Below, piece by piece: positions 10,533 to 29,142 of a stretch of 38,109 nucleotides of DNA. The stretch is from a virus. The notes under the pieces were generated by a model. That model had not been told where the DNA came from and searched no databases. It saw nothing but the letters and a program-made list of their open reading frames with translations. The first letter of the stretch is position 1; each line of letters starts with the position of its first letter. A program made the translations under genes and the position numbers. The stretch spans positions 1-38,109 of IMG/VR virus record IMGVR_UViG_3300010160_000112. The stretch is one strand, 5' to 3'.

Positions 10533-13500
10533 ATGGCAACAACAACTAGACAAACCGCAATCTTTGGAGTAGAGGACTGGAAACAAATCTACCAGACCTA
10601 CCGCGAAGCCGACTTCCAAAGCTACGACTTTGAGACTCTGCGCAAAAGTTTTGTTGATTATCTGCGCCTGTACTATCCCGAAACATTCAACGATTACATT
10701 GAGTCTAGCGAATTTATCGCGCTGTTGGATGTGATGGCATTCATGGGCCAAGCACTGGCTTTTCGCACTGATCTCAACACACGAGAAAATTACATGGACA
10801 CTGCTGAACGTAGAGATTCAGTAGTTCAATTGGCAAACTTGGTCAGCTACACTGCTAAACGCAATACAGAAGCACAAGGCTTGCTCAAGGTGTTTTCAGT
10901 GGTCACAACAGAAAACGTCACAGACTACAACGGAGTAAATCTCAGCAATGTTACAGTAGACTGGGCAGATCCTACCAATCCTGCTTGGCAAGAACAATTT
11001 ACTACCATCATCAATGCCAGCCTGGTTGATTCGCAAAAAGTGGGTCGCCCAGGAAATCGCCAGACCATCTTGGGTGTGCGTACTGACGAATATGGTATAA
11101 ATCTAGTGCCAGGATTCTTGCCGGTAATCCCTTACACTGCCACAGTGGATGGAATCAACATGCCATTTGAAGCTATGTCCTCTACATCGATGGGCGAAGA
11201 TTATCTCTACGAACCCAGCCCTAAGATAAACCAAGCATTTAACATATTGTTCCGTAATGATCAGCTGGGATTCAACAGCAACAACACCGGATATTTCTTC
11301 ATGTTCAAGCAAGGAGTGTTACAGAATCAAGACTTCAACTTACCTGAACGAATTTCTAATCGTACGGTCAATATCAACATTGATGGTGTTAACGAACAAG
11401 ACCGTTGGTTATTCCAGTTGGACAATGTGGGAAACATCAATCGTGAATGGAAGTTTACAGAAAATGTTTATTCGGCCGCTGCCGAACAACTTGGCACCAG
11501 CCTGCGCCCTATCTTTTCAGTGACCAGTAGAGCTAACGATCAGATCACTTTGGTATTTGGCGATGGGGTTTTCAGTGAAATACCAGTGGGCACATTCCGT
11601 TGCTATGTTCGTGCATCTAATGGATTGCAATATATCATCAACCCTGAAGAAATGCAATCTGTCAGTTTGCCCATCAGCTACATCAGTCGCAGCGGCAATC
11701 TTGAAACTATAACTTTTACTTGCGGTATTACTCAACCGGTCAGCAATAGTCAATCACGCGAACCAATTGCACAGATCAAACAACGTGCGCCTGCTCAGTA
11801 CTACACACAGAATAGGATGGTCAACGGAGAAGATTACAATCTGTTTCCGTATACTCAGTACAACTCCATCCTCAAGAGCAAAGCTATCAACCGTGCCAGC
11901 ATCGGGACCAGTCGGTATCTTGATCTAGTGGACAACACCGGCAAATACAGCTCAACCAATACATTTGGCAGTGACGGCGGCCTGTGGGAACAGAACGTAT
12001 TACCTACCATATTGTTCTCCTGGAATACCAGGAATGAAATCGCAGATGTTATAACAAACCAAGTACAATCAGAATTACTAGCGCCTATTGTCAAGCAGTT
12101 TTACTATGCAAATTTTCCGCGTCAGTCGGTCAATACCGGCACCACCGCATTGAGCACCTGGCAACAAAGTACTACATTGGCCAATCAGACCACTGGATTT
12201 TTCCGTAATAGCACCGTGACCAGTACATGGACCAGTGGTACTCCTATACCAGTAGGCAATGTAGTAAGCATATCTAATCCTTTCTTTTTTGTCACACCAG
12301 GCGCGTTGATAAAATTTGTATCGCCCACAGGATATTACTTTGATCGTAATAATCGACTGGTTCAAGGAACCCCGTCTCGAGCGGACGAAACACTAGAAAT
12401 TTGGGCCAGCCCTCTGCAGGTACTGGGTGACGGATACAACGGAGGATTAGGCAATCTTCCATCGGGTGCCGGACCTGTTACTTTGAACAACTTTGTTCCT
12501 ACTGGGGCCATTGTCGATTCGATTATTCCATTGTTTGTTACTGATTTGCCATTGGACCTCGAAACTGCCATCAGCGAGCAAATTGTATTGTATCGTAATT
12601 TTGGCCTAGGCTATGATAACGATGGATCTGTTACAGGCACACCATATTCTTGGTATCTGATTACTAGTACCAATCTTGATCAGGATGCAGCCTGGAGCCA
12701 GACCGTTCCAGGAGCGGCCGGTAACACCAACGGAGTAAACACCGATGCCAGCTGGATGATACAATTTGTCACAGTGAATCAAAGTTACACTATTACCTTC
12801 CGCGGATTACAATACAATTTTGGATCAGTGCTACAGACAAGATTTTTCTTTTATGAAAATCAACAAATTTATGACAGCCGGACCGGTACGGTGATCAAGG
12901 ATTATGTCAATGTGTTAGCAGTCAATACTCAGCCAGATTCTACAGCACATCTGCCTGGAGACATCCCTGTAACTATTATAGGCCAGCCGGTGGAAAGCGA
13001 TGGATATGTGGACGATTTCCAAGTGTTGGTCAGCTATCGAGATGCAGACAGCGACGGCATTCCTGACAATCCAGATTTTTTTACAGAGATTGTTGCCCCT
13101 ACGGTAAATGCCAACGAAAAATTAGTATTCTTGCAACAGACCGTTGATTTTGACAATCTTCAACGCTATCTATTGGTAGAACGCGGACGAGTAAATTCCG
13201 ACTATGCTACCATAGATGATATTGAATTGGTCAAGAGTGAATGGTCTCCGGGCCAGGTGTTTTATGCCTACGATCAAGACACATTCTACGAACTCAGTAT
13301 TTCTGTAACAGGAGTACGTACACTTGTGGCAGTAACAGGATGGATCGCACGAACAGGTCGACAAGATTTGTACTATCAATATCGTCATAATTCTCCATTG
13401 ACTAACCGTATAGATCCCGGTACTACTAACATCATTGATTTATATGTGATACCTCAATCTTATTATACCGCCTATCAGAATTGGATCAGGGACACTACCA

Positions 13501-14000
13501 ACACTGTACCAAAGCCCAATGTGCCCACCATCGATGAACTCAATACTGCATATCAAGGATTACAAGATTATAAAATGATCAGCGACAACATCATCATCAA
13601 CCCAGTGTCGTTTAAACCAATGTTTGGTATGAAGGCAGCGTCGGAATTACGAGCTACTATAAAAGTGATACGTGCTGCTAACTCCACAGCCAGTACCAGC
13701 GAGATCAAAAGTTCAGTGGTAGCAGAAATGAATAATTACTTCAGCATTGACAAATGGAATTTTGGAGATACCTTCTACTTCTCGGAACTGGCAGCGTACC
13801 TACATCGTATGCTGGGCACAATCATCAGCTCGGTGGTACTGGTACCGTTAAACACACAAAAATCTTTTGGAGACTTGTACGAAGTACGATCAGCACCAAA
13901 CGAATTGTTTGTTAATGCAGCAACAATAGACAACATCGAAGTGATTGAAGCACTTACCAGTACCAATCTGCGTACCGCACCGGGCAGCGGAGTAATTTAA
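10533..14000 (+). CDS. 6: gp6-like baseplate wedge protein (baseplate J family)
   Basis: A 1155-residue protein. The N-terminal 200 residues are strongly typical of gp6 in T4-like phages: FETLRKSFVDYLRLYYPETF, IESSEFIALLDVMAFMGQAL, FRTDLNTRENYMDTAERRDS, LVSYTAKRNTEAQG. The central part has the baseplate-J-like segment (DQITLVFGDGVFSEIPVGTF and IKQRAPAQYYTQNRMVNGEDY). The C-terminus (FKPMFGMKAASELRATIKV, FGDTFYFSELAAYLHRMLG) is also conserved. gp6 dimers form the inner iris ring of the baseplate and couple the wedges during contraction. It is nearly twice the length of T4 gp6 (660), with beta-rich insertions between about 560 and 960. Its stop overlaps the next start (TAATG), pairing it with the giant gp7-position gene. 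Confidence 0.88.
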   Translation: MATTTRQTAIFGVEDWKQIYQTYREADFQSYDFETLRKSFVDYLRLYYPETFNDYIESSEFIALLDVMAFMGQALAFRTDLNTRENYMDTAERRDSVVQLANLVSYTAKRNTEAQGLLKVFSVVTTENVTDYNGVNLSNVTVDWADPTNPAWQEQFTTIINASLVDSQKVGRPGNRQTILGVRTDEYGINLVPGFLPVIPYTATVDGINMPFEAMSSTSMGEDYLYEPSPKINQAFNILFRNDQLGFNSNNTGYFFMFKQGVLQNQDFNLPERISNRTVNINIDGVNEQDRWLFQLDNVGNINREWKFTENVYSAAAEQLGTSLRPIFSVTSRANDQITLVFGDGVFSEIPVGTFRCYVRASNGLQYIINPEEMQSVSLPISYISRSGNLETITFTCGITQPVSNSQSREPIAQIKQRAPAQYYTQNRMVNGEDYNLFPYTQYNSILKSKAINRASIGTSRYLDLVDNTGKYSSTNTFGSDGGLWEQNVLPTILFSWNTRNEIADVITNQVQSELLAPIVKQFYYANFPRQSVNTGTTALSTWQQSTTLANQTTGFFRNSTVTSTWTSGTPIPVGNVVSISNPFFFVTPGALIKFVSPTGYYFDRNNRLVQGTPSRADETLEIWASPLQVLGDGYNGGLGNLPSGAGPVTLNNFVPTGAIVDSIIPLFVTDLPLDLETAISEQIVLYRNFGLGYDNDGSVTGTPYSWYLITSTNLDQDAAWSQTVPGAAGNTNGVNTDASWMIQFVTVNQSYTITFRGLQYNFGSVLQTRFFFYENQQIYDSRTGTVIKDYVNVLAVNTQPDSTAHLPGDIPVTIIGQPVESDGYVDDFQVLVSYRDADSDGIPDNPDFFTEIVAPTVNANEKLVFLQQTVDFDNLQRYLLVERGRVNSDYATIDDIELVKSEWSPGQVFYAYDQDTFYELSISVTGVRTLVAVTGWIARTGRQDLYYQYRHNSPLTNRIDPGTTNIIDLYVIPQSYYTAYQNWIRDTTNTVPKPNVPTIDELNTAYQGLQDYKMISDNIIINPVSFKPMFGMKAASELRATIKVIRAANSTASTSEIKSSVVAEMNNYFSIDKWNFGDTFYFSELAAYLHRMLGTIISSVVLVPLNTQKSFGDLYEVRSAPNELFVNAATIDNIEVIEALTSTNLRTAPGSGVI

Positions 14001-17000
14001 TGGCCACTATACGTTCGGTAGATTTACTCCCACAAATATTTCAAACTGATACCAACAAGCAGTTCTTGGCTGCCACTTTGGATCAACTCACACAAGAACC
14101 ACAGTTCAAGAAAACGCAAGGGTTCATTGGGCGCACAGTAGGTCCGGGAGTCAATCCCAATGACACATATGTGGTAGAGCCGGATGCCACGCGACGAGAT
14201 TATCAACTTGAGCCGGGTGTGGTCAGTTTAGTTCCTGACACCAACACTATCAAAAATGCTATTACCTATCCGGGTATCAACGATGCTGTGGGATTCAGTG
14301 GCGGCGATAGCACACGCCCTGACAGACTGTATGAGAGTGAGTATTACACCTGGGATCCATTTGTAGAGTTCGATTCGTTTGTGAACTTCAGTCAATATTT
14401 TTGGTTACCGTCGGGCCCGGATCCTGTGGATGTGGCAGCATCTACCATACCTACTACTGATAATTTCATAGTTGATCGTGAAAATGGAGTGTATACATTT
14501 TCCGGAGTTACCGGCAACGACCCGGTTATAGATCTTGTGCGCGGTGGCAGCTATACTTTTCAGGTAGCTCAGAATACCAAAGAAACAGTGAATTATCGTG
14601 TGGGTAATTCTGGCACTGCTGCATATCTAATAGACGGATTAAGCAATCCGGCACTTACGCTTGCTCGCGGTAATACCTATGTGTTTAATTTGGTGTTCAA
14701 CGGAGATTTTCCGTTCTGGATCAAAACTGCACCAGTTACTGGAGTAGGCGATGTATACAACACAGGCGTCACAAGAAACGGCGCGCTGACTGGATTAGTT
14801 ACTTTTACTGTGCCACAAGATGCGCCGGATACATTGTACTATGCAAGTCAAACACAATTGAACATGCAAGGTACATTGAATATCATTGATGGCACACCGG
14901 GCACCGGAGCAGGATTTTGGATACAAGCATCACCGGGAGTAAATGGTCGAGACCCGTCTAGCCCAAACATCAGTTCGAGAGATGTACTGGGCGTATTCAA
15001 CAACGGTACAGATCTTGGCACCGTGACTTTCAATGTGCCACTGAAAACTGCACAGAATTTTTATTACTCGCTAACCCCATTTGGCGTCAACCCCAGCGGA
15101 ACTATTATCACCCCTGTTGATTTGATTTGCGATCTTAAATTTGATGAGATCAACAACAAGCAAGTGGATGAATTCTTGGCCGTATACGGCGGCATTGATG
15201 GCACCGCCAATCTCAATGGTCGTACACTAGTATTCACTGAACCGGTAACCGATGCCGAAGCCGGTGGATGGCAAGTGACTACGTTTTTTGATCCATTGGA
15301 AGAATCAAGCGCAAACAATTTCCTAGTAGGTAGCTTTGACACTACATTTTTCAGCCAGACAACCGATGTTGCGCCCGAAGACCGGTATCAATTATGGCAA
15401 ATCAATTATGTCACGGTCAATAATTACACCTTCATGTCCTTGAGCAAGATCTCTGACATCCCGGCGCTAAACAAATTTACCGCAAGATACGGAGCTCAAT
15501 ACAGCAACACACAATGGTACAAAACAGCCGCTGGGTTATTTGAACGAATTCCATTGTTGACTGCGGCACAAGACACTTTGTATTATCAAGATGGTACTGA
15601 TCCTGAAATCTTTGGTCGTATACGTCTAATAGATCAGTCTGCTAATACCACTCTGTACATTGATTCTATCTTGGGCCAACCTAATTATACCAGTCCAACT
15701 GGTGTAGTTTTTACCAATGGCCTCAAAGTAAAATTCATTGGTGATGTAGTCCCGTCCACATATGCATCTGGAACCTTTCCGTTAGTGATCACTGCCGCAC
15801 AGGCCGGCAGCAATTATCTCACAACCGAATCTACCGCTAATCTTTACGTCAACGAGCAGATCATATTCACCGAAAGTATTGGTGGTATATTACCAGGAAC
15901 ATATTACATCCAGAGTATCGCAGCGAATGGTATACAATTCAGTATCAGCACCAAAAAAGGCGGCGGCGCCTATCCTTTACAACCTGGTACAGTAACTGGT
16001 GTTACTGCAACTGTCAACAGCGATCTAGAATACTACGTAAGCGGTGTAGGAACAGCGATTGAATTATTGTTGGTTGATATTTTTGTCACTCCCGAATCGT
16101 ATCTAGTAGATGCTAACGATAGCACCATCTACGTTGAACCAGGCTCTACAGATTATCTTACCATCGACCGGGCCAGCCGTGACCGCAATGCGTGGAGCCG
16201 TAGCAATCGCTGGTTCCATTCAGACGTTATCAACGCTACTGCAACATACAACAACGCCACAGCCACATTTGATAACAATTATCGAGCCAAGCGACCCATC
16301 ATCCAGTTCCGTCCAAATATCAAACTATGGAACATGGGCACCGAAGGCAAGGATCCGGTTGATATTATTGATTTTTCACAAACTGATGCATTCAGTAATG
16401 TGGTGGGGTCTACTGAATATACTGTAGATGGGTATACCTTTATAGACGGCAGCCGAGTGGTATTTGCTGCGGACGCTGATCAATCTGTAAAGAACAAGAT
16501 ATATGTGGTATCATTCATTGTGCCGGATACTGTGGCTCCGTTGATTTCGCAGCCTATCATCAATCTGACACCAGCTGAAGATGGAGAAGTGCTGACTGAT
16601 CAATGCACTATCTGTTTGAATGGCTCAACAACCGCAGGTGTTACATTTTGGTTTGATGGCACAGCATGGATTGAAGCACAACAAAAAACTTCAGTACAAC
16701 AGGCTCCGTTGTTCAATGTATACAACCCTGACGGATATAGCTTCGGTGATCGGGCAGTGTATCAAAGTTCTACATTCTCGGGTAGCAAATTGTTTAGTTA
16801 CGCAGTAGGAGACACCAACATTATTGATCCGATATTGCAATTTCCTTTGCAATACCTCAATATCAACAACGTAGGAGACATTGTCTTCAACAATGATTTA
16901 TACAAAGACACTTTCTTGTATGTGGTCGATAATGCTAGTGTGACATTGGATATCAGCTCAGGATCTGTCAGAGAGTATGGAACTCGTGCAACTTATCAAC

Positions 17001-20000
17001 GCCTAATTGGCTGGCAAACTGCGATCACAACAAGTCAGACCTACCAACAATTTAAATTTGAATACACTGGCGCCACACTCAAACTGGATGTCAAAGTTAA
17101 CGCTCCAGTAAACAACACACCTGCGATTAAAATATACGTAGGATCAGTATTTCAGGCGCCGGGCAATTACAGCTATATTACTGGTGCCAACAGCACAGTA
17201 ATCACATTAAACAATACCTATGTGCCAGGTGATATCATTGAAGTATTGGTGTTAAGCGACCAGCCCAGTGCTACAGCATTTTATCAAGTTCCTATCAATC
17301 TGCAGAATAACCCATTGAATGGAAATAGTCCAGAATTCACACTGGGTACCATACGAACACATTATGAAAGCATCTGTCAGAATCTGTTGACAATTCAAGG
17401 ACCGGTCAACGGCTCCAACAACACCAGAGACCTTGGCAACATAGTGCCTTATGGACTGACTATTTTGCAACAAAGTGCGCCAATGACGCTGGCTGGATAT
17501 TTCTTGCGTTCAACGGACTACAATATTTTTGCATCGTTGAGTTTTGCCGCCAGAGAATATAACAAATACAAATATCAATTGTTAGATGCTGTGACGCAGC
17601 AAACAATTGGGTTTGAATCCATAGGTCAGGTCCTGGACACTGCAATACAAGATGTCACTCTAGGTCGAGTGGAATCACAACCATTTTACTGGTCAGATAT
17701 GCTACCGTTTGGTGCAGTATATACCACTACGACTTACAACATTGAGTACACCATAACAGATTCGTTTGACACGGTTCAAGTTTATAACTATCGGACGGCA
17801 AATTATCTAGGCATGAATGTGTACCTAAATGGAGTATTGTTAACAAGAGATCGTGACTATGTGGTAGCCGCCGACGGCCCACGTGTGACTATTCTCCAGG
17901 ATTTAACATTTGGCGATCAATTGATTTTCCAAGAATACAGCGCCACATATGGCAGCTTTGCTCCTAATACTCCTACTAAATTAGGATTGTATCCAGCATT
18001 TGTGCCGCAGGTGATCACGCAAAAAGCCAGCAACGGATTGGTGCAGGTCACACAAGGACACGACGGATCGATCACTCCGTTGTTCAATGACATACGTGAT
18101 CAGGTGTTGTTGGAGTTTGAAACTAGAATATATAACAATCTCAAGCTAGATGGAAATCCTGTTCCGTTGACCATTGACGATGTGTTGCCCGGACAATTCC
18201 GTGACACAGGATTCACTTACGCAGAAATTACTAACATATTGAATCAAGATTTCTTGAGTTATGTAGGTGCTAACAAACTTGATTTTCGTGCTCAAGATTT
18301 TCGTGCTACCAATGAGTTCACATGGAACTACAGCGGTGCACAGAATAAATTAAACAACACACAAAACTTATTGGGTGCCTGGCGCGGTATCAATCGTTAC
18401 TTCTATGACACTGAACAGCCACAATACACTCCTTGGGAGATGTTGGGATTTAGTAAACAACCTCTCTGGTGGGAAGATACATATGGCCCAGCACCATACA
18501 CCGGCGATAACTTGGTGTTGTGGGACGACCTAGCAGCAGGTTATGTGGCCGATCCTATACAACCATACTTCCGGCCAGAATATGCACGTCCAGCAAGCAT
18601 TGGCTCGTCGGACGAACCACCTCGTGGAGGAATCTGGGGAGCAGGTCCGTATCCTTCTTTGCTGCCAATCATACCAACTGGTGACGAGGGGCAACTATTA
18701 AGCCCGGCTCAAAGTGTGATGGGAACATATGCATCTGCACAATTCCAGAAGAGTTGGGCACCCGGAGACGGCAGCCCTGTAGAAGCATCGTTCTGGAACA
18801 GCTCTAGTTACCCATTTGCAGTGATGCATGTGCTGGCAGTGACTCAGACTGCTAAGTTTTTTGCACTGTTTGCCGATCGTGACCTGTATCGATACAATGA
18901 AGAATTTGGGCAATACTTGCTGAATGATCGTTATCGTTTGAATGCCAACGGCATTGAAGTATACGGTAACGGGGTTAGCAAAGCTAGCTACATTGACTGG
19001 ATCGTTGATTACAACCGTCAGGCCGGTATTAATTCCACTGATGAGCTGACTGCAGACCTAGCCAATCTTGACGTGAGATTGTGTTATAGAATGGCCAGCT
19101 TTTCCGACAAGCAATACATTAAGTTGTTTACGGAAAAATCCAGTCCTAATTCTACCAATACTGCATTGTTAATTCCGGATCAGAGTTATAATCTACTGCT
19201 GTACAAAAATCAACCATTTGACCGTACTAGTTATTCAGCAGTGGTCATACAGATAGTGCCCGGCGGATATGCCATGTATGGGTACAACACATCTCAACCA
19301 TATTTCAACATAATAGCCAGTAAATCCACCGGCCAGTTGCGAACAATCACATCCGGTGGAGCCACAGTACAAGTACCCACTTTCTATACTGATACAATAG
19401 TACAGATACCGTATGGATTTATATTTGCCAACGAAACAAGTGTTTGCGATTTTTTCTTGAGCTACGGAAAATACTTAGAAAAGCAAGGTATAGTTTTTAC
19501 TGATCGTGCCAACGGATACACACTAGATTGGTTGCAGATGTGTAACGAGTTCTTGTATTGGAGTCAGCAAGGCTGGGGCGAAAACGCTCTGCTGAATCTG
19601 AATCCATTGGCAGGTAAACTTTCTGTGACTCGTGAGCAAGCGGTAGTAGATAGCATAGTTGTACAAGCCATAGACAATGTGCTGTTGGATCAAAACAATC
19701 GAGAATTGCCCACACGCAATCTCAATATCACACGGATCGACAATACCTTTACTTGCGAACCGTTGACTACCCAGACTTTGAGTTTTATTGATCTGAAATA
19801 TACCACACACGAACACATGATTGTGCTAGACAATCAGAGTGTGTTTGGTGATTTAATTTATCAACCTATCACCGGAGCACGTCAGAGCCGCTTGGTGTTG
19901 GTGGCCGCCAACACTGACAATTGGACTGGGCAGATTAACACCCCAGGTTTTGTTCTTAATCTAAACAACGTGGAAGAATGGTCGGGATTAAAACGCTATA

Positions 20001-23000
20001 CCAAAGGACAGATAGTAAAATACAAAAATGTGTATTGGAGCGCATTGAACATTATACAACCAAGCAACCGATTTGATTTTAATGACTGGGTGCAAAGCGA
20101 TTACACACAGATTGAATTGGGTCTACTGCCTAATCTGGCCAACAAAGCAAATCAATTGGCCAACAGTTATAATATTAATTCTGCCAATCTTGAAAGTGAT
20201 AACGATCTATTGAGCTATGGATTGATTGGGTTCCGTCCTCGGCAATATATGGCCGCACTGAACCTAGACGACGTGAGTCAGCTGAATGTGTATCGACAAT
20301 TCCTAGGATCCAAAGGAACCATACTCAGTGCAGAGCTATTTTCCAATGCCAATCTTGGAAAAGAAGCAGCAGACTACAGCATCTATGAAAACTGGGCGGT
20401 ACTGCGCTCAACCTATGGGGCTAATGCCAATCGTAGTTTTGTTGAACTTAGACTAAACAAAGCCTATCTGGCCAGTGATCCGAGTGTGGTGCAAGTTGTA
20501 TTACCCCAGCAGGTGAGTGCAGCCGACCAACAGATCTTGTTAAGCGATGTATGGAAACAAAGTTATAAGTTAACTTCTACCGATTTTTTGCCTACCACTA
20601 CAACTTTACCTACTGACATAGGATTGCCCACGGCTGGATATGTGAATTTAAATGATGCTGATATCACAGTATTTGATGTCAACGACCTAGGAAACATTGC
20701 TGCCAATCTTGATGCTATTGCTGTTGGAACATCAATATGGATGGCAAAGATAAATGATTACGATTGGAATATCTATCGTGCGCAAAGTGTGCCGGGCACA
20801 ATACAGCATGTATGCGATAACCTAGATGGCACCAGCAGAGTTATATTCAGTCTACCGCATGGGTTGTCGGTTGGGGATACCCTGATTATCAAGTTTTTTG
20901 ATACCGAAGTCAATGGTGTCTATGAAGTGATGAGCGTACCAAACATAACCACAGTAAACATTGCGTTCCAATTTACCAGCCGCCGTACTGTGGCAGATGG
21001 CATCGGATTAGGCTTCACACTACAAACCATGCGTGTGGCGCAAGCGTCGGACGTTATCAACTTGCCATATGCAGATGATATCGCAGCAGGGTCGATTGTT
21101 TGGGTGGATAATAACGGTGCCGATCTATGGGAAGTGATACAAAAACAAGAAGTATTTTCAGGTTCAACACAAATTAGTCCGATACTGTTAGACGCTGGGG
21201 AACAATATGGGTCAGCAGTGGCCCAGGCCAACTCACGATCAGCATTGTTTGTGGGTAGCCCACGATATGGGTTTGGTACCGGAACTGAATCGGGTGCAGT
21301 ATATGTGTATGTTAAAAACTCTGGAGACACATATTCTCCAGTGAGTCCAATTGCTGATGCAGACGGCATCCTTACATTGGGTGCAACCGGAGTTCGTGCA
21401 TATGGCAACGCTGTAGATTTTGGTAATCAGACCTGGGCAGTGGTGGGTGCTAGCAAAAGCCTTGGCCCTGCCAGTCAGACCAACAATGGTTATGCTGCGA
21501 TAGTTTATCGAGACCCGGTGCTGGGTCAGCCTGGCATCAATCCGTTTACCAATTGGCAATTGCTAACATTACCTGGTACAACCACAACAACTACTCCTGG
21601 CGCAGGGGAATTTGGATACTCAGTGACTATGAGTCCAGATGAGCGCTGGGCATACATTGGTGCTCCTGGATTGAATACAGTATATGCATATGGTCAAGTG
21701 CCGTGGCAAGATCAATATGTTAGTGTATTAGGCAACGGCATCACAAAACAATTTACGATTGCCAGTGAAATACAAATCAACAACAGCAGTCAGCTCAGAG
21801 TCACATTCAATGGGCAACCTCAGATCTCAGGATACTCTATTGATGCAGCATTTGACAAAGTCACATTTACCACTGCACCCGCAGCCGGTGTACTTGTAAA
21901 ATTCCAACGTATCAGCTCACAACAACTAGATGCGCAGACTTATTATGAAGTACCGCAAACATCTACCAGCGGCAGCGGGGTCGGCGCAAAATTTACAATA
22001 ATAAGAGTTCGAGGACAAGTAGGTCAGCCAGGGTCAACCACCGGCGGAGTCGGTGCTACGTCTCTAGGGTCAGGATATGCAGTAGGAAATACCATCACTA
22101 TTGCTGGTGCTAGCTTTGGAGGCACCAACAATATTACTCTCACGATAACATCAATTGGAACCGGCGGCACACTAGGCAACTTTACTATTGCGTACACTGC
22201 ACCGGCATTGACAACGGTGTTTTCGTTGAATGAATATTTCTTTACTGCCACAAACATCTATAGTTTCAGCGTTCAGGTCAACGGAGTGTTATATCGTCCC
22301 AACATAGATTATAGTTTTAGCACAGCCACACAAGATTTAACATTCACCGGAACTGGGCCACCGTCGGGCACTGTGATCATTGTGACAGCAATGAGTTATT
22401 TCACCTATGTTAATTCTTTCACCGTTGCCGGCTTAGGCGGCTCAGATAGATTTGGTCATTCAGTATCATGCACCACAGATGGCCGCCAGATAATGGTCGG
22501 TACTCCGTACAGCACAGAAAGCAGCCAGGTTGAAGCTGGATCTGTGTATGTGTTTGACCGTAATGTACAACGCTTTATCTATGGCGAAGATGGGTCAACT
22601 GTGACATTCACTTTGTTAGGCACGCCAGTGGCTCCTATCAGTGTTATTGTTAATAATGTATTCTTGACCAATCAGGCCGATGGCGTGGTCGGAGCAGCAA
22701 ATACTTTCTATTGGAATGGTGCTAACACAGTAACAATCAATGCTGATTTACAATATGGTGATGTGATTGAAATTGAAACCAATCAATTCTCACAGATCCA
22801 AGAAATTGCACAAAACACTGTGGCTAATTTCTCAAATTTTGGGCAGAGCATTGACATCTGCTCTAATAATTGCAGTCTGTACGTGGGTGTACCACAAAGC
22901 AGTGAACAGGTGTACAAAGGCGGAGTGGTTGAGCGTGATGTAAATCAAAGCCGTGTTTACGGCACTACTACATCGACTGCTGCTAATGCAGTACTCACTG

Positions 23001-26000
23001 CTGGAAATACCTTGCGTGTGAACAACATGGATGTGGTAGTACCTACTACATGGAGCAGTCTGAGTTCTTACAATAAGAATGATGTAGTTTATAATTTGTC
23101 AGGTAGCACATACACAATTTATGTGGCATTGCAAGCGGTTCCTGTTTCTACTGCATTGAGCAATGCAAGTTATTGGTCTGTGGTTACTACAACCACAACC
23201 GCAGCCAGTATCTATGTCCGTGCGTTGGCCGCACAGATAAACAGCACAGTACCAAATGTCAGTGCCACGGTTGATGCCAGTGGCTATCTGACCATAGCTG
23301 TTAAGAATAGCAATTCTGCAACTGCGTTTAATAAACTGCAAGTGGCACCTGGGTCAGTTGGCACAGCATTTACCACATTGGCATTCAAGACATTTGTGTT
23401 TACACAAACCATACTCAGTCCTTATCCAGTAAAATATGCTGCGTTTGGATACAGTGTGAGCATCGCAGATACTGCTACTACACTAGCAGTAGGTGCACCG
23501 AATGGTACTTTGTATTTGATAACCGTGTTTGATGATGGTACCACAGACTTTGATGCCGATAGTACTACATTTATCACCACCGTAAACAATAGTGGTGCTG
23601 TATACACTTATGATTACTTGCCCGGAGCAAACATGAGTGTGTCAAATCCTGGCAACTTTGTATTTGGTCAGCAAATAACCAATAGTGAGATCAGCGAACT
23701 TGATTCGTTTGGTGCTGCAATCACTTACATAGATGGTGTATTGGTAGCAGGCGCGCCAAACAATGACGTTGGCGACAGCTCAGCAAATTACGGTCGGGTG
23801 TTTGTGTTTGAAAATCCAGACCGTCTGAGTGCCTGGAAAGTGATACGCCAGCAACAGCCAGCAGTGGATGTGAGATTGCTCAATGGGGTATTCACATACG
23901 ATCGGATTACCAGTGCTACTACGCAATTCTTTGACTTCTTTAATCCGTTACAAGGCAAGATATTAGGCGCTGCAAGACAAAATATTGATTACATCAGTGC
24001 GCTTGACCCTGCAAATTACAATATTGGACCGACCAGCATCAATGGTGCTACCTGGTGGTCAGGGCATGTGGGAGAAGTATGGTGGGATACCAGCACGGTG
24101 AGATTTATCGATCCCAATCAAGATGACGTAACCTACGCCAGTCGACGTTGGGGACAAATTTTTCCTGGCAGTACAGTAGAAGTATATCAATGGGTCTTGA
24201 GTGCTGTGCCACCATCTAGTTACACCGGCCCCGGAGTACCGTATAGTACCACAAGTTATAGTATCAATTCACGACTTGACCGGGACGGCGTATTTGCCAC
24301 TGAGTATTATTTCTGGGTACGAGGAATAACTACCACGGCTGTTCAGCAAGGAAAAACACTCAGCATAGCAACAGTAGCACAATACATTGAAAATCCTCGC
24401 GCCAGTGGCATAACTTACATCGCACCAATCAATGCCAGCACCATTGCTTTGTATAATGCTGCTGAATACATAGTGGCATCGGATACTGTGATTAACATAT
24501 CATTTGACCGAGAAGCCACTGAGAGTAATGTACACACTGAATACGAATTAATAGCCGAAGGCAAGCCCGACGCGTTCTTGAGCACTAATCTTTACCGTAA
24601 ACTGCAAGACAGCTTCTGCGGAGTTGACACATTTGGTAACAATGTGCCCGACCCTAATCTCGGACCAGCTGAGCGTTACGGGGTGCAATTTAGACCTCGT
24701 CAGAGCATGTTCACCAACAGATTCAGTGCTCTTGAAAACTATCTCACAAGAGTTAACAATGTGTTAGCCCGGTTTCCGATCTCAGAAAGCCGCAGTTTTA
24801 ATCTGCTTAACAGCGCCGAACCGGAACCTAGTGCAGCCACCGGCCTGTGGAATTTACGTGTGGCTAACTTGGAAATCTTAGGGTTCCAAAATATCTACAC
24901 TGTGCCAATCGGTTATCGTTATCTAGTGGTAACCGACAGTGATAATCGCGGTCTATGGACGATTTACACAGTAACAGATAGTGACCAAGTTGCTGGTGAC
25001 CGCCTGTTGAGATTGTCATTTGTGCAAGGATACAATACTGCTGATTATTGGAGTTATATTGACTGGTACCTTCCAGGATACAATTCCAGCAGTAAAGTTC
25101 TAGCAGAAATTACCAATACTGCAGGGTTGAGTACATTAGATGTACCAGTGGGCAGCAGTGTACGAATCACTGCTAATGCACAAGGTAAATGGGAAATATA
25201 TCTGTTGAGTGACACTGGTTGGGATCGTGTAGGATTACAAGATGGCACTATTGCATTCTCAGCTGAGCTATGGGATTATCAATTAGGCAGATTTGGGTTT
25301 GACATTGAAGTTTTTGACGCACAATATTATGATCAAGAACCTGTGAAAGAAACAAGAAAAATTATTCAAGCCATCAATGAAGAACTATTGATCGACGATC
25401 TTGCCATTGAGAGAAATCGTGCATTGATCTTGATGTTTAATTATGTGTTGAGCGAATTCTCTGCACCTGACTGGTTGGTTAAAACCAGCTTGATTGATGT
25501 GGATCACCGCATACGAGATCTTGCTCCGTATCAAAATTATCGTCGAGATAATCAAGAGTTTGTGATTGATTACATAAAAGAAGTCAAGCCATATCATGTT
25601 CAATTGCGCGAATTTAATCTGCGATATAATGGACTGGATCAATTCCTTGGAAGCCTTACTGATTTTGATGTGCCGGCCTACTACAACACTTCGCTGACTG
25701 TTCCCCAATACACCAGTCCTATATTATTACCTTACGAGCACGGTTCTTCAGATATTTCTAACTTCCTAAGTGATTTGCCGGCCAACAGCACGGTGTGGAA
25801 CACTTTTCCATACACTCAGTGGTATAACAATTATCTATTGACACTGACAGATGTATCAATGGTCGACAATGGAACTGGTTATACTGAACCTCCGTTGGTG
25901 ATAATTGGAACTGCGTGGACTAGTAATACTCCAGTGACTATTAATCAACAATTATTTTACGCTAATAATAATGTGACTAATCTGTATACTGTGGTAGCAG

Positions 26001-26233
26001 ATGGCATAACCGGCATGGATCCGCCAACTTTTACAACCGCTGGCAACCAAACTGATGGTACAGCTACACTGACGTATACTGGGCTAGCGGCGCAGGCCAC
26101 TGCGGTGATCAACAGCCTAGGTCAGGTAGTAGCGGTCAATGTAACTTATTCTGAAGCGTATATCGATCGACTCCTGAGATATCATTCACAGGCGGTGGCG
26201 GCATTGGGTCAGGCGCTAGAGCGTATGCTCTGA
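14000..26233 (+). CDS. giant multi-domain baseplate/tail protein in gp7 position (4077 residues, apparently truncated by a frameshift)
   Basis: A 4077-residue ORF. The N-terminus (LLPQIFQTDTNKQFLAATLD, ESEYYTWDPFVEFDSFVNFSQYFWLPSGPD) is shared with the large proteins found after gp6 in aquatic T4-like phages; direct similarity to T4 gp7 is not visible. Domains seen: a cupredoxin-like domain (about 211-299); several VNG...DY beta modules (near 1045-1090, 1275-1315, 2600-2640, 2760-2800, 2880-2930); a conserved mixed core (about 1590-2200, containing FWNSSSYPFAVMHVLAVTQTA); a carbohydrate-binding-like module (1994-2034); and a seven-blade FG-GAP propeller (2403 to about 3275) with modules inserted between blades. 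Translation ends abruptly in a Gly-rich module, and the matching remainder continues in another frame, so the 3' end is probably not native. Expected location is the outer baseplate. Confidence 0.75.
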   Translation: MATIRSVDLLPQIFQTDTNKQFLAATLDQLTQEPQFKKTQGFIGRTVGPGVNPNDTYVVEPDATRRDYQLEPGVVSLVPDTNTIKNAITYPGINDAVGFSGGDSTRPDRLYESEYYTWDPFVEFDSFVNFSQYFWLPSGPDPVDVAASTIPTTDNFIVDRENGVYTFSGVTGNDPVIDLVRGGSYTFQVAQNTKETVNYRVGNSGTAAYLIDGLSNPALTLARGNTYVFNLVFNGDFPFWIKTAPVTGVGDVYNTGVTRNGALTGLVTFTVPQDAPDTLYYASQTQLNMQGTLNIIDGTPGTGAGFWIQASPGVNGRDPSSPNISSRDVLGVFNNGTDLGTVTFNVPLKTAQNFYYSLTPFGVNPSGTIITPVDLICDLKFDEINNKQVDEFLAVYGGIDGTANLNGRTLVFTEPVTDAEAGGWQVTTFFDPLEESSANNFLVGSFDTTFFSQTTDVAPEDRYQLWQINYVTVNNYTFMSLSKISDIPALNKFTARYGAQYSNTQWYKTAAGLFERIPLLTAAQDTLYYQDGTDPEIFGRIRLIDQSANTTLYIDSILGQPNYTSPTGVVFTNGLKVKFIGDVVPSTYASGTFPLVITAAQAGSNYLTTESTANLYVNEQIIFTESIGGILPGTYYIQSIAANGIQFSISTKKGGGAYPLQPGTVTGVTATVNSDLEYYVSGVGTAIELLLVDIFVTPESYLVDANDSTIYVEPGSTDYLTIDRASRDRNAWSRSNRWFHSDVINATATYNNATATFDNNYRAKRPIIQFRPNIKLWNMGTEGKDPVDIIDFSQTDAFSNVVGSTEYTVDGYTFIDGSRVVFAADADQSVKNKIYVVSFIVPDTVAPLISQPIINLTPAEDGEVLTDQCTICLNGSTTAGVTFWFDGTAWIEAQQKTSVQQAPLFNVYNPDGYSFGDRAVYQSSTFSGSKLFSYAVGDTNIIDPILQFPLQYLNINNVGDIVFNNDLYKDTFLYVVDNASVTLDISSGSVREYGTRATYQRLIGWQTAITTSQTYQQFKFEYTGATLKLDVKVNAPVNNTPAIKIYVGSVFQAPGNYSYITGANSTVITLNNTYVPGDIIEVLVLSDQPSATAFYQVPINLQNNPLNGNSPEFTLGTIRTHYESICQNLLTIQGPVNGSNNTRDLGNIVPYGLTILQQSAPMTLAGYFLRSTDYNIFASLSFAAREYNKYKYQLLDAVTQQTIGFESIGQVLDTAIQDVTLGRVESQPFYWSDMLPFGAVYTTTTYNIEYTITDSFDTVQVYNYRTANYLGMNVYLNGVLLTRDRDYVVAADGPRVTILQDLTFGDQLIFQEYSATYGSFAPNTPTKLGLYPAFVPQVITQKASNGLVQVTQGHDGSITPLFNDIRDQVLLEFETRIYNNLKLDGNPVPLTIDDVLPGQFRDTGFTYAEITNILNQDFLSYVGANKLDFRAQDFRATNEFTWNYSGAQNKLNNTQNLLGAWRGINRYFYDTEQPQYTPWEMLGFSKQPLWWEDTYGPAPYTGDNLVLWDDLAAGYVADPIQPYFRPEYARPASIGSSDEPPRGGIWGAGPYPSLLPIIPTGDEGQLLSPAQSVMGTYASAQFQKSWAPGDGSPVEASFWNSSSYPFAVMHVLAVTQTAKFFALFADRDLYRYNEEFGQYLLNDRYRLNANGIEVYGNGVSKASYIDWIVDYNRQAGINSTDELTADLANLDVRLCYRMASFSDKQYIKLFTEKSSPNSTNTALLIPDQSYNLLLYKNQPFDRTSYSAVVIQIVPGGYAMYGYNTSQPYFNIIASKSTGQLRTITSGGATVQVPTFYTDTIVQIPYGFIFANETSVCDFFLSYGKYLEKQGIVFTDRANGYTLDWLQMCNEFLYWSQQGWGENALLNLNPLAGKLSVTREQAVVDSIVVQAIDNVLLDQNNRELPTRNLNITRIDNTFTCEPLTTQTLSFIDLKYTTHEHMIVLDNQSVFGDLIYQPITGARQSRLVLVAANTDNWTGQINTPGFVLNLNNVEEWSGLKRYTKGQIVKYKNVYWSALNIIQPSNRFDFNDWVQSDYTQIELGLLPNLANKANQLANSYNINSANLESDNDLLSYGLIGFRPRQYMAALNLDDVSQLNVYRQFLGSKGTILSAELFSNANLGKEAADYSIYENWAVLRSTYGANANRSFVELRLNKAYLASDPSVVQVVLPQQVSAADQQILLSDVWKQSYKLTSTDFLPTTTTLPTDIGLPTAGYVNLNDADITVFDVNDLGNIAANLDAIAVGTSIWMAKINDYDWNIYRAQSVPGTIQHVCDNLDGTSRVIFSLPHGLSVGDTLIIKFFDTEVNGVYEVMSVPNITTVNIAFQFTSRRTVADGIGLGFTLQTMRVAQASDVINLPYADDIAAGSIVWVDNNGADLWEVIQKQEVFSGSTQISPILLDAGEQYGSAVAQANSRSALFVGSPRYGFGTGTESGAVYVYVKNSGDTYSPVSPIADADGILTLGATGVRAYGNAVDFGNQTWAVVGASKSLGPASQTNNGYAAIVYRDPVLGQPGINPFTNWQLLTLPGTTTTTTPGAGEFGYSVTMSPDERWAYIGAPGLNTVYAYGQVPWQDQYVSVLGNGITKQFTIASEIQINNSSQLRVTFNGQPQISGYSIDAAFDKVTFTTAPAAGVLVKFQRISSQQLDAQTYYEVPQTSTSGSGVGAKFTIIRVRGQVGQPGSTTGGVGATSLGSGYAVGNTITIAGASFGGTNNITLTITSIGTGGTLGNFTIAYTAPALTTVFSLNEYFFTATNIYSFSVQVNGVLYRPNIDYSFSTATQDLTFTGTGPPSGTVIIVTAMSYFTYVNSFTVAGLGGSDRFGHSVSCTTDGRQIMVGTPYSTESSQVEAGSVYVFDRNVQRFIYGEDGSTVTFTLLGTPVAPISVIVNNVFLTNQADGVVGAANTFYWNGANTVTINADLQYGDVIEIETNQFSQIQEIAQNTVANFSNFGQSIDICSNNCSLYVGVPQSSEQVYKGGVVERDVNQSRVYGTTTSTAANAVLTAGNTLRVNNMDVVVPTTWSSLSSYNKNDVVYNLSGSTYTIYVALQAVPVSTALSNASYWSVVTTTTTAASIYVRALAAQINSTVPNVSATVDASGYLTIAVKNSNSATAFNKLQVAPGSVGTAFTTLAFKTFVFTQTILSPYPVKYAAFGYSVSIADTATTLAVGAPNGTLYLITVFDDGTTDFDADSTTFITTVNNSGAVYTYDYLPGANMSVSNPGNFVFGQQITNSEISELDSFGAAITYIDGVLVAGAPNNDVGDSSANYGRVFVFENPDRLSAWKVIRQQQPAVDVRLLNGVFTYDRITSATTQFFDFFNPLQGKILGAARQNIDYISALDPANYNIGPTSINGATWWSGHVGEVWWDTSTVRFIDPNQDDVTYASRRWGQIFPGSTVEVYQWVLSAVPPSSYTGPGVPYSTTSYSINSRLDRDGVFATEYYFWVRGITTTAVQQGKTLSIATVAQYIENPRASGITYIAPINASTIALYNAAEYIVASDTVINISFDREATESNVHTEYELIAEGKPDAFLSTNLYRKLQDSFCGVDTFGNNVPDPNLGPAERYGVQFRPRQSMFTNRFSALENYLTRVNNVLARFPISESRSFNLLNSAEPEPSAATGLWNLRVANLEILGFQNIYTVPIGYRYLVVTDSDNRGLWTIYTVTDSDQVAGDRLLRLSFVQGYNTADYWSYIDWYLPGYNSSSKVLAEITNTAGLSTLDVPVGSSVRITANAQGKWEIYLLSDTGWDRVGLQDGTIAFSAELWDYQLGRFGFDIEVFDAQYYDQEPVKETRKIIQAINEELLIDDLAIERNRALILMFNYVLSEFSAPDWLVKTSLIDVDHRIRDLAPYQNYRRDNQEFVIDYIKEVKPYHVQLREFNLRYNGLDQFLGSLTDFDVPAYYNTSLTVPQYTSPILLPYEHGSSDISNFLSDLPANSTVWNTFPYTQWYNNYLLTLTDVSMVDNGTGYTEPPLVIIGTAWTSNTPVTINQQLFYANNNVTNLYTVVADGITGMDPPTFTTAGNQTDGTATLTYTGLAAQATAVINSLGQVVAVNVTYSEAYIDRLLRYHSQAVAALGQALERML
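14630..14895 (+). other. cupredoxin-like domain lacking copper ligands (within giant protein)
   Basis: Residues about 211-299 follow the cupredoxin-like pattern common in phage virion proteins: NPALTLARGNTYVFNL, a PFWIKTAP strand, GVTRNGALTGLVTFTVPQDAP, then LYYASQTQLNMQG. Copper-binding relatives have HPFYIKT and LYYQCxxHxxM. Here the ligand positions are F237 (for His), S283 (for Cys), Q286 (for His) and M289, so only Met is kept and metal binding is unlikely. Confidence 0.6.
21206..23830 (+). other. seven FG-GAP repeats: predicted integrin-alpha-like beta-propeller with inserted modules
   Basis: Seven blade signatures appear in the giant protein at residues 2403 (YGSAV...ALFVGSPR), 2468 (YGNAV...WAVVGAS), 2538 (FGYSV...WAYIGAP), 2818 (FGHSV...IMVGTP), 2947 (FGQSI...LYVGVP), 3149 (FGYSV...LAVGAP) and 3237 (FGAAI...LVAGAP), most followed by a G-x-V-Y-V-F strand. 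Seven is the number needed to close an FG-GAP propeller. Spacing is tight for blades 1-3 and 6-7 but larger for 3-4 (280 residues), 4-5 (129) and 5-6 (202), where other beta modules are inserted. The calcium-type DxDxDG loops of integrins are not evident. Confidence 0.72.
26150..26158 (+). other. apparent one-base frameshift joining the two giant ORFs
   Basis: The 4077-residue frame reads VNVTYSEAYIDRLL and stops at 26233. The frame one base back is open from 26155 and reads SVYRSTPEISF then TGGGGIGSG, the natural ending of the same Gly-rich module (compare NGTGYTEPPLVII about 90 residues earlier). Adding one G after 26153 (tctgaagc to tctggaagc) restores SGSVYRSTPEISF exactly in register. 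There is no X-XXY-YYZ slippery heptamer, so a missing base (sequencing or real) is more likely than programmed shifting. Confidence 0.72.
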
Positions 26234-26364: not shown

Positions 26365-29142
26365 GTGTGGCAAGCTGCCAGCACAGATTCCACTGCGGTA
26401 GTAGGCCCTGACTTTAATCTTGAAGATTGGACATTGATACCGGCCAAAGATTTAACCGGTGTGGACCGTACTATGGGTCTATATGTGGCCGGCGTAGATC
26501 AACCAGGATTAGATTTGCCATTGTTGATTGACGGTGTTAACTACCCCGGAGTTCAAGTGTATGGTAATTATTTCACAGGAACAACCCCTGAAGATGCTGC
26601 ATACGCTAGCTCGTTTACTGATACAACATTGGGTCAAACATATAGTAGTATCAATGTAGATGGCGGCGAATTCATTGGATTGTACGAAGGTCATGCTCCT
26701 GAAGAATTAGTAAATGGTGCCGAATTTGATACCTTGGACATGCGTGTGTACACTCGTCCAGGCGCAGATTGGAACAGGGATGGACACGGATTCCAATTAG
26801 CAGATCTTCGTTATCAATATAATGCTGCTGTAACAAATGTCTTCAGCTGGGCCGGATTGGTAGACAATCCTGTGGGCATATTTGTGACCAACACCACAAC
26901 AAATCTACCACTATCACTCAACATCGATTATACTGTGAATTGGATATTACAAACTATTACTCTACTCACAGTAGCAAATGGAAATATCATCAGCATTGCT
27001 GCGTTTGAAATTGGTGGCGGCAGTCAGTTGTATCGTACAAATATAGTAGGCAATGATACAAACACTACCATAATACCGGTTAATGCTGCGGAAATAATCG
27101 ACTTGGCAATATTTGTCAATGGTGCACCTGTCAGTGGAGCATCGTGGGATCCGTATATTGACAGCACTGACTGGAATCAGCTGAATAGTTATTCTAAATT
27201 AGATGTGGTCAACTCCACCGACGGTAGTACAATGGAAACTTACTATCGAGCACTACGTGATGTGCCAGCAGGCATAGATATTGCTAATGCTACTTATTGG
27301 ATAGAATTTACCCCTACGTTAGAATCGATAGTCGATTTAGGTGCAGTTTATACCAACACCGATGCTATCGCATTGACTGCATTTGGTGTGACCACGATCG
27401 ATGCTGGATATTTTGTCATTGGCAGACAATACACTATAACGCAAGTAGGAACAACTAATTTTGTGGCCATTGGCGCTGGTGCAAACACAATAGGAACGGT
27501 GTTTACAGCCAGCGGAGTAGGATCGGGCACTGGAACAGCTTCTACAGTATATGGATGGAGTGTGCCGCAGACTCAATATATCATTGCTGATTCTAATTTT
27601 GTTACATTTAAATCTACCACATTAACTAATTCTGTGCAAGGTAGCAATTTAGCCAATATGATAGTCACACGCAATGGATTGAGATTGCAACCCCCCGAAG
27701 GGCGTGAATGGATCAGTGATGGTAGTTCATTGGCATACAGTTTGCCCACACGCGGCGGCTATAGCCAGGCAATTGTAAACGCCACTACAGATGTGATTGT
27801 GTGGGTTGATAATATACTACAACAACAAAGCATCGGTGGAGTACCGGGTGTGTACAGCGTGACTCCGTACGTATCTGCAAATGATCGCGATGTGGTGTTC
27901 AATGTGGCTCCGCCTGTTGGTGCCCGTATATTGATCACAGTAACTACTCAAGCAGGTTATCAGTTGGCAGGTACTACGTTACAAATTGTAGGAGGTGTAA
28001 ATCTTAATGATTTGTTCGCAGTTACTACATTTAATGATACTTCACAGCAGTATCCGTTAACACTGGTATTCAACGGCCCTGTGATTACCGGTGTGGTCGA
28101 GCAAGACCCATTTGATCCGTTGCCAAATGAGGCAGCATACAACAACCAACCAGGCAGCTTTGATTATGCCACAGTCAATAACACTCAATGGAGTTTTGAT
28201 TACAGCGTAGGCACTGCGGTATATGACAATCAATTCTGGTTAGAGCGTGCAGGCGTCAATGCTGCCAGATTATGGGTCACGTTGGATGGTTATGCATTGA
28301 CCAACAGTATAGATTACAGCGTGGAAGGTGAATATCTGATACTAGCATCCGGTGCTATCCAGCCAAATCAAATAATGGCAATCACCGAAGTCACTGACAG
28401 TATTGTTCCGGACGCAATGGCATTCCGTATATTCCAAGACATGCGCGGAGTTCAGGCCACATATCGTATCACTCATGAAACTACCACAACCTTGACACAG
28501 TCATTGACCGCAGATGCTGATATAGCATATGTGGAAGATGCTCTTGCATTAGGACAGCCTAATCTGGACATTGGTGTTTTTGGGGTATGCACAATCGACG
28601 GTGAGCGTATCATGTACAGAAGTATTAATGCGGCCAACAATACATTATCGGGATTGATGAGAGGTACTGCTGGGACAGCAGCAGCAGACCACGATACTGG
28701 CACAGCAGTTTATGACCTAAGTCGTGGAAATCTACTACAAAGTGACTACCAGGATTATATCGTATCTGACACCAGCCTCGGAGATGGATCTACTACTGTA
28801 TTTTATGCTCCAAGCATAACTCCTGGTGACTTTGTTGATAGTGCTAGCGAAGCACCTGCAATAGAAGTATATGTAGCCGGTATCCGCCAATACGCATACA
28901 GTGACACTACTGCCACCAGCCAATATCGTTGGTTTGTGACTGATTTTGACCCGTTGGCTGTGGATTTTGTTGTTGATGACACTGCATATCCACCGTTGTT
29001 GCCACCTGTACCTAATGTAGAAGTCACAATACTGGTACGTCAGGGTGTGACTTGGTATCAACAAGGAGCAACCACACCTAGCGACGGAATTGCATTGCAA
29101 GATACCGATACAGTCGCTGCAAGGTTTTTACGTGGTTTATAA
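26365..29142 (+). CDS. C-terminal continuation of the giant baseplate/tail protein (separate ORF by frameshift)
   Basis: As a free ORF this would start at GTG 26365 (925 residues), but there is no ribosome site, the GTG lies inside a domain (YDDRVWQAAS), and the frame is open back to 26155 with no other start. It is therefore probably the end of the upstream giant gene. Modules: carbohydrate-binding-like W...Y...V...W segments (26311-26433 and 27172-27306); a widespread phage tail module GRQYTITQVGTTNFVAIGAG with GTVFTASGVGSGTG (27421-27540); several VNG/DY-type beta modules (near 26880, 27110, 27800, 28270, 28868); and a GERIMYRSI...LSGLMRGTAGTAAADH module (28600-28695) frequent in phage tail proteins. 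The product ends TVAARFLRGL before a 19-base gap. Role: periphery of the baseplate or host-contact surface, by inference. Confidence 0.7.
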   Translation: MWQAASTDSTAVVGPDFNLEDWTLIPAKDLTGVDRTMGLYVAGVDQPGLDLPLLIDGVNYPGVQVYGNYFTGTTPEDAAYASSFTDTTLGQTYSSINVDGGEFIGLYEGHAPEELVNGAEFDTLDMRVYTRPGADWNRDGHGFQLADLRYQYNAAVTNVFSWAGLVDNPVGIFVTNTTTNLPLSLNIDYTVNWILQTITLLTVANGNIISIAAFEIGGGSQLYRTNIVGNDTNTTIIPVNAAEIIDLAIFVNGAPVSGASWDPYIDSTDWNQLNSYSKLDVVNSTDGSTMETYYRALRDVPAGIDIANATYWIEFTPTLESIVDLGAVYTNTDAIALTAFGVTTIDAGYFVIGRQYTITQVGTTNFVAIGAGANTIGTVFTASGVGSGTGTASTVYGWSVPQTQYIIADSNFVTFKSTTLTNSVQGSNLANMIVTRNGLRLQPPEGREWISDGSSLAYSLPTRGGYSQAIVNATTDVIVWVDNILQQQSIGGVPGVYSVTPYVSANDRDVVFNVAPPVGARILITVTTQAGYQLAGTTLQIVGGVNLNDLFAVTTFNDTSQQYPLTLVFNGPVITGVVEQDPFDPLPNEAAYNNQPGSFDYATVNNTQWSFDYSVGTAVYDNQFWLERAGVNAARLWVTLDGYALTNSIDYSVEGEYLILASGAIQPNQIMAITEVTDSIVPDAMAFRIFQDMRGVQATYRITHETTTTLTQSLTADADIAYVEDALALGQPNLDIGVFGVCTIDGERIMYRSINAANNTLSGLMRGTAGTAAADHDTGTAVYDLSRGNLLQSDYQDYIVSDTSLGDGSTTVFYAPSITPGDFVDSASEAPAIEVYVAGIRQYAYSDTTATSQYRWFVTDFDPLAVDFVVDDTAYPPLLPPVPNVEVTILVRQGVTWYQQGATTPSDGIALQDTDTVAARFLRGL

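Follow-up and report, generated by a model that had tools for sequence, protein, structure and literature searches.

The question raised by this locus is what a propeller of the integrin-alpha type does in a giant protein encoded within a phage baseplate gene block. Within the window, i.e. the whole analysed stretch of 38,109 nt, the genes gp53, gp5, gp25 and gp6 are followed in this order by a giant ORF, and the preliminary description of its product as a phage baseplate protein agrees with this membership of the block. The main features are as follows.

10094..10471, + strand: gp25-like baseplate wedge protein
10533..14000, + strand: gp6-like baseplate wedge protein, directly upstream of the giant ORF
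14000..26233, + strand: giant ORF of 4077 aa, scaffold and propeller; phrog_10938 (virion structural protein), E 1.6e-293
16037..20509, + strand: conserved scaffold core, residues 680-2170, common to PA5oct, Atu_ph07, Phosso, SCTP-2, Vibrio 2.275.O and CBB
23834..25699, + strand: conserved scaffold C-flank, residues 3279-3900, without a PDB fold match
26365..29142, + strand: downstream ORF, which in relatives is the C-terminal part of the giant protein and is split off here by a frame break near 26155

The phrog_10938 profile matched the giant ORF in 4 stretches, and among Pfam families at E ≤ 1 the whole ORF gave only FG-GAP_2, Sgo0707_N2 and DUF2460; there was no Rfam match within the window and none in the P0001 sequence search of solved structures. 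Presence in the virion is supported for the scaffold family, not for this virus itself: the scaffold relative CBB_236 was detected in CBB virions by mass spectrometry, according to a passage of PMC5259590, and another scaffold relative, EST35_0128 of PA5oct, carries the note ESI-MS/MS.

Seven FG-GAP motifs resembling FG-x-(S/A)-(V/I)...(V/I)-G-(A/S/T)-P lie within residues 2403-3290 of the giant ORF, as had been announced from position 21206 onwards, and start at residues 2403 (the codon beginning at 21206), 2468, 2538, 2818, 2947, 3149 and 3237. The pattern occurs 7 times in the protein versus a mean of 0.014 and a maximum of 2 in 2000 whole-protein shuffles, and shuffling of the region only (n=2000) gave a mean of 0.0115 and a maximum of 1. 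It was composed after the motifs had been seen and is fitted to them, therefore the Pfam model FG-GAP_2 (PF14312) serves as the independent test. This model matched the giant ORF with 38.1 bits (E 1.8e-9), exceeding its cut-off of 23; in the window record four separate stretches matched with E ≤ 1.6e-4, one of which alone passes the cut-off. An FG-GAP_2 match at E ≤ 0.1 was obtained in 22/22 aligned members, and the older Pfam model PF01839 matched in 1/22 relatives. Conservation of the motif per blade ranges from 63/64 to 69/69 rows, with 66/69 for blade 3, in the alignment (A3) built from 80 loci with the omission of 11 identical ones and of L079, whose frame is broken; L013 and L014 are not among the 80 because their giant proteins are equal to that of L012.

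The AlphaFold model of the propeller, built with 68 relatives (pLDDT 88.9, pTM 0.88), places a four-stranded repeat at each of the seven motifs and closes them into a ring; it is a predicted and not a solved structure. Integrin alpha heads superpose on it from the first to the last blade (model residues 1-891) in VIA-align, the best match having Z 40.2 and 2.7 A over 362 residues, and integrin alpha accounts for 50/50 among the matches listed, with Z 36.1-40.2. Foldseek itself superposed the model poorly on integrins, with a TM by query of 0.3 and an rmsd of about 15 A over 940 columns with gaps, because the inserts break the alignment; the good figures are those of VIA-align. In a comparison of the propeller profile with the sequences of solved structures integrin alpha-IIb came top with a non-significant E of 0.084. 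As modelled, the seven blades of the domain form a closed ring of the integrin-alpha/FG-GAP type, which is what the preliminary description had proposed; neither of the two outcomes that it named as refuting, a propeller that does not close or the lack of FG-GAP profile hits, was observed. The parts of the domain are arranged in the following way.

21158..23827, + strand: integrin-alpha-like propeller of seven blades including its inserts, residues about 2387-3276, predicted from the AlphaFold model, VIA-align and the strand map
21158..21175, + strand: N-terminal strand, which, judged by the order of the strands and by its alignment with residue 1 of integrin, would complete blade 7 as its fourth strand and close the ring
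21206..21340, + strand: blade 1
21401..21568, + strand: blade 2
21611..21700, + strand: blade 3, strands 1-3
22397..22420, + strand: blade 3, strand 4
22451..22579, + strand: blade 4, strands 1-3
22763..22810, + strand: blade 4, strand 4, the end of a long strand common to module D
22838..22945, + strand: blade 5, strands 1-3
22859..22873, + strand: C-x3-C of blade 5, in the loop joining strands 1 and 2; 69/69 aligned rows have both cysteines
23393..23416, + strand: blade 5, strand 4
23444..23677, + strand: blade 6, with a low-confidence loop at model residues 790-811
23708..23812, + strand: blade 7, strands 1-3

The ring is interrupted by extra modules. Their existence had been recognized correctly from the sequence, but their supposed placement between blades 3-4, 4-5 and 5-6 was not upheld, since the strand map puts them within blades 3, 4 and 5, in each case in the hairpin that joins strand 3 to strand 4.

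21707..21913, + strand: module A, blade 3; matches the N-terminal region of tailspike colanidase (E 4e-3) and, weakly, DUF2460
21914..22204, + strand: module B, blade 3, GYxxGNTITI type, missing in some relatives
22205..22387, + strand: module C, blade 3
22580..22762, + strand: module D, 3-4 hairpin of blade 4
22946..23392, + strand: module E, 3-4 hairpin of blade 5
23045..23194, + strand: CBM5/12-like piece nested in module E, missing in many relatives

Pfam CBM_5_12 was matched at E ≤ 1 by 13/23 aligned fragments (best 2e-5), the window's own blade-5 fragment giving no match, and an insert matched an F2-pyocin tail fibre at E 1.6e-4. Inserts in the hairpins of blades 3-5 are found in nearly all relatives, some of which have optional inserts also in the 2-3 and 4-1 loops, and optional CBM5/12-like and other modules are gained or lost within single loops.

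These observations bear on whether the propeller and its inserts touch the host at all. It is rather unlikely, though a serious alternative, that both are structural and form a spacer or docking platform for wedge proteins or tail fibres, the inserts varying as the partners vary. Module A resembles the N-terminal part of tailspikes and T7-type tail proteins, by which in known phages fibres are anchored to the virion; the position of the scaffold within the wedge gene block and the near-constant presence of the blade 3-5 hairpin inserts point in the same direction. The turnover of the optional CBM5/12-like and other modules within single loops, however, fits adhesion parts better, and the likeness of some inserts to CBM5/12 modules and to a tailspike/T7-fibre-type module lends binding indirect support. 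The reading that we prefer, and hold to be probable, is that this giant virion protein of the baseplate block represents a rigid propeller chassis on which modules for adhesion or docking are displayed and can be exchanged.

The comparison with the integrin alpha head (9t3y_A, alphaM; 5e6s_C, alphaL) shows in both cases seven four-stranded FG-GAP blades (Z 40.2 and 39.0, 16-19% identity) and the insertion of domains into loops of the propeller, of which the alphaI domain is the integrin example. The carriers are different, a phage protein here and the integrin alpha subunit there, and most of the phage inserts are housed by 3-4 hairpins, those of blades 3-5. Integrin alpha further possesses, in several of its blades, calcium-binding DxDxDGxxD loops that connect strand 1 with strand 2, and behind the head the thigh and calf leg domains, whereas the calcium loop occurs in 0/69 rows of the phage propeller and the giant ORF lacks integrin leg families (Pfam, E ≤ 1). 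These differences matter for the idea that, as in integrins, ligands bind to the top face of the ring itself, with inserts regulating the access to it. The fold match to integrin heads speaks for it, as do the optional inserts of the 2-3 and 4-1 loops, which form the face that integrins use, on the side of the I domain insertion; nevertheless, given the missing calcium loops and the fact that phages have no known integrin beta partner, we consider it quite improbable.

PF14312 repeat proteins occur in bacteria, in phages and in giant viruses. They share the repeat profile above cut-off, and the BFVD neighbours belong to uncultured Caudovirales phage and to relatives of mimivirus, but here a single fixed ring, interrupted by modules, is embedded in a baseplate-block scaffold. 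The fold is known and the setting is new. The full-text search of published literature (titles and abstract starts) gave no account of a phage baseplate with a propeller of the FG-GAP or integrin-like kind.

In the viral contig collection at least 579 stretches match the baseplate-block protein; the scans comprise the best 80 matches, and consequently propeller-less relatives may be under-sampled. The collection of phage records contained no propeller relative at E ≤ 1e-5, and at E ≤ 1 the 188-260 module alone was matched, in 15 records. In prokaryote genome contigs 83 pattern hits were obtained, 0 of which were confirmed. With a strict blade HMM applied to 223 ORFs, seven blades were found in 168, six in 24 and more than seven in none, while a permissive iterated HMM on 175 unique intervals gave 0 hits in 6, 5 in 7, 6 in 7, 7 in 130, 8 in 24 and 9 in 1, the extra blade hits being weak. 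Judged by these profile hits, the blade count of seven is firm only at the strict threshold.

A tree was calculated by a quick method from 173 intervals thinned to 118 (2/175 unique intervals were dropped, their core being too short), in which the long outgroup branches (PA5oct, SCTP-2, CBB and others) are flagged as unsure. The propeller is present in 112/112 uncultured representatives and absent from six named jumbo phages; it occupies one variable site of a conserved scaffold. At least 21 changes of insert class in blade 3 and at least 14 in blade 5 were counted on the 118-row tree, where 86 rows were countable and 26/112 propeller rows lacking a clean seven-hit set were left uncounted; changes in blades 1, 2 and 6 were no different from those with shuffled labels. 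The notion that the repeats are an ordinary FG-GAP decoration with no specific role, as in many viral proteins, may refer to the wide occurrence of FG-GAP-like structures in viral proteins (182 BFVD matches at E ≤ 0.001) and to the 64 FG-GAP_2 matches of Phosso, which lie in other genes, but it hardly deserves credence, because site and blade number are fixed and the motifs conserved in 112/112 tree representatives outside the named phages.

The phrog_10938 giant virion proteins of PA5oct, Atu_ph07, Phosso, SCTP-2, CBB, RaK2 and 121Q share with the window protein the scaffold (pieces of 22-37% identity) and the location after gp6; unlike it, the named phages showed no FG-GAP match in the six examined. 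Between the same flanks they hold from 45 (CBB) to 1532 (Atu_ph07) residues. A divergent propeller in these intervals was considered and rejected: Pfam found none in five of them, the blade HMM gave 0/6, and hhalign detected no propeller in those of Atu_ph07, PA5oct and SCTP-2 (three of the six phages). Kelch-type propellers are reported in other CBB proteins in a part of PMC5259590.

T4 gp7 is likewise encoded directly after gp6 in the baseplate block, the giant protein being four to five times longer. Sequence homology to T4 gp7 was rejected, since hhalign probabilities were ≤ 0.5% when the profiles of the core and of the C-flank were compared with T4 gp7 itself and with a profile of six gp7 members. 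The C-flank, the only part of the scaffold that was folded, gave a model with pLDDT 81.5 and pTM 0.60, for which Foldseek gave no PDB match with E ≤ 0.001 and the best VIA-align Z was 4.5; no solved structure or homologue that places the scaffold in the baseplate was found. We infer a location in the baseplate wedge, an outward display of the modules and binding to the host surface. The preliminary description is supported in part, as regards the ring, its projecting modules and the baseplate gene block; the position at the tail periphery and the host-surface or glycan-binding role that it suggested are more tentative.

According to the proposed chassis mechanism, the conserved scaffold of uncultured jumbo phages would hold the closed seven-bladed ring at one variable site as a stable and rigid chassis. 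Beta modules would be carried by the hairpins joining strands 3 and 4 in blades 3, 4 and 5, and some relatives would bear them also in the 2-3 and 4-1 loops. Modules of tail-fibre, tailspike and CBM5/12-like kinds would be gained, lost and replaced while the ring stays, and most likely they would, upon landing of the baseplate, make contact with the envelope of the host or serve to dock fibres.

It is possible, as a tentative extension, that the ring has been kept as an insertion chassis, the phage counterpart of the integrin head, and that lineages insert and exchange adhesion domains in a small set of fixed loops within a baseplate protein, which would provide jumbo phages with a system for host range or attachment that is distinct from the tail fibres. 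If this is true, there would be a site on the virion where adhesion parts change without touching the fibre genes, defined loops and modules would be available for host-binding tests, and the phage would offer a case for studying how integrin-type propellers spread and acquire inserted domains.

The FG-GAP propeller lies in a single ORF of the window, a virus record of 38109 bases, and its sequence surroundings are as follows (window positions).
14000-26233, plus strand: giant ORF, 4077 aa, bearing the propeller
14595-14890 (residues about 198-297): ~100-residue module also present, at 35-48% identity, in Prochlorococcus and Synechococcus phage tail fibre proteins
19973-20107: second CBM5/12-like piece, within the scaffold core, whose profile gives a weak match (E 0.027) to the chitinase A1 chitin-binding domain
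22859-22873: C-x3-C pair of blade 5
about 26155: break of the reading frame
26365-29142: following ORF

The preliminary description had proposed seven integrin-like blades, and a purpose-written FG-GAP pattern found exactly seven sites in the giant ORF, against a mean of 0.014 in shuffles (n=2000). The Pfam FG-GAP_2 profile (cut-off 23) reached 38.1 bits with the giant ORF as a whole and 51.5 bits with the propeller piece of 917 residues alone. The search of the phage record collection with this piece gave zero matches at E <= 1e-5, and a 22-sequence profile confirmed 162 matching stretches in the viral contig collection, from which 79 loci were retained and the window was aligned with 68 distinct relatives (69 rows).

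Blades of the propeller. Motif start (giant ORF residue); FG site kept in the alignment (of rows with a residue there); insert in the strand 3-4 hairpin by strand map; changes of insert-length class on the scaffold tree (86 rows counted).
Blade 1: 2403; 68/68; changes at least 2
Blade 2: 2468; 67/67; changes at least 4
Blade 3: 2538; 66/69; insert about 230 residues; changes at least 21
Blade 4: 2818; 68/69; insert about 60 residues; changes at least 4
Blade 5: 2947; 69/69; insert about 150 residues; changes at least 14
Blade 6: 3149; 65/65
Blade 7: 3237; 63/64

The AlphaFold model of the 917 residues built with this alignment reached a mean pLDDT of 88.9 and a pTM of 0.88. In VIA-align the first 50 matches listed were integrin alpha entries, the best being alphaM, which superposed over 362 residues at 2.7 A rmsd and 17% identity (Z 40.2), spanning model residues 1-891; integrins were also top in Foldseek (E 5.9e-8), where global superposition was poor because of the inserts. 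The strand map gives four strands per motif, with three after the motif of blade 7, whose fourth strand is predicted to be supplied by residues 4-9 at the start of the piece, closing the ring as in integrin propellers. Unlike integrins, the propeller carries no DxDxDGxxD loop (0/69 rows). Its place is taken by the C-x3-C pair between strands 1 and 2 of blade 5, invariant in 69/69 rows; some integrin blades bear their calcium loops at this position.

The genes 5' of the giant ORF are gp53-, gp5-, gp25- and gp6-like, and the giant ORF itself occupies the gp7 place of the T4 gene order; profile comparisons found no sequence relation of the scaffold to T4 gp7, and the C-flank model matched zero solved folds. 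In Salicola phage SCTP-2 (L008, 2609-11899) the gene before the scaffold relative, gp6-like in other phages, is about 3097 aa. The scaffold (residues 1-145, 680-2170, and 3279-3900) is common to jumbo phages, where the approximate length in residues of the interval between the same flanks rises from 45 (CBB) through 128 (Vibrio 2.275.O), 320 (PA5oct) and 399 (SCTP-2) to 1515 (Phosso) and 1532 (Atu_ph07) (lengths by HMM boundaries differ somewhat); the site is therefore variable across the family. The relative in CBB, CBB_236, was detected in virions by mass spectrometry according to an excerpt of PMC5259590, and ESI-MS/MS is noted for the relative in the PA5oct record. Relatives possess one intact ORF of about 5000 aa covering both window ORFs. 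The frame break may be either an artefact of assembly or a genuine split; the propeller region of another locus (L079, 10001-12393) also has a broken frame.

A blade HMM built from 471 blade sequences was run on 223 ORFs having both scaffold flanks, and seven to zero blades were found in 168, 24, 2, 4, 6, 12, 1, and 6 ORFs, or in 124, 21, 1, 4, 6, 12, 1, and 6 of 175 unique intervals, the six ORFs with zero being those of the named jumbo phages. An iterated permissive HMM recovered more blades in diverged intervals; 25 intervals yielded eight or nine hits, which were weak. The C-x3-C pattern occurs in 143/175 unique intervals; those of the six named phages are among the 32 without it. On the tree of 118 scaffold cores propeller presence changes once, between these six phages and the other 112.

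At four further points relatives carry extra modules: three are 2-3 loops (blade 1, CBM-like, 5 rows; blade 2, 2 rows; blade 4, 4 rows) and the fourth is the 4-1 loop following blade 1 (2 rows). Module B of the blade-3 insert or the CBM-like piece is missing from other relatives; the latter, a 50-residue CBM5/12-like piece nested in the blade-5 insert, is absent as one block from many. In two loci, L173 and L255, most motifs follow one another closely, which makes the ring almost bare. Label shuffles (n=300) gave minimum class changes of 26, 5, and 22 for blades 3, 4, and 5, all above those observed, and thus insert classes are inherited yet often changing; in blades 1, 2, and 6 changes were too rare for this comparison.

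FG-GAP_2 also matches 64 times in other very long ORFs of Sinorhizobium phage Phosso (PV764938.1), located at 48-69 kb and at 92-95 kb. Two of these frames measure 3702 and 3182 aa and the others are shorter; they are perhaps fibres of several propellers. Atu_ph07 (MF403008.1) has, at 243 kb, a distinct FG-GAP frame some 409 aa long, and its protein named hemagglutinin (BFVD A0A2L0UZX4) matches the propeller model in fold.

The fold and the scaffold family are already on record and FG-GAP proteins are common in viruses; none of the open-licence papers retrieved describes a baseplate-block protein in which an integrin-type ring is embedded, keeps its number of blades and exchanges its inserts. 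Computation demonstrates the fold, the inserts, and their turnover. Hints of module display to the host come from matches to Pfam CBM5/12 (13/23 fragments), F2-pyocin tail fibre (E 1.6e-4), colanidase tailspike, and Phage_T7_tail (6/22 relatives). The same four hints are compatible with the propeller and inserts serving as a docking platform for fibres, the main alternative, which we regard as less likely. Under the display reading, which we favour, the ring would be a rigid chassis presenting exchangeable modules toward the host.
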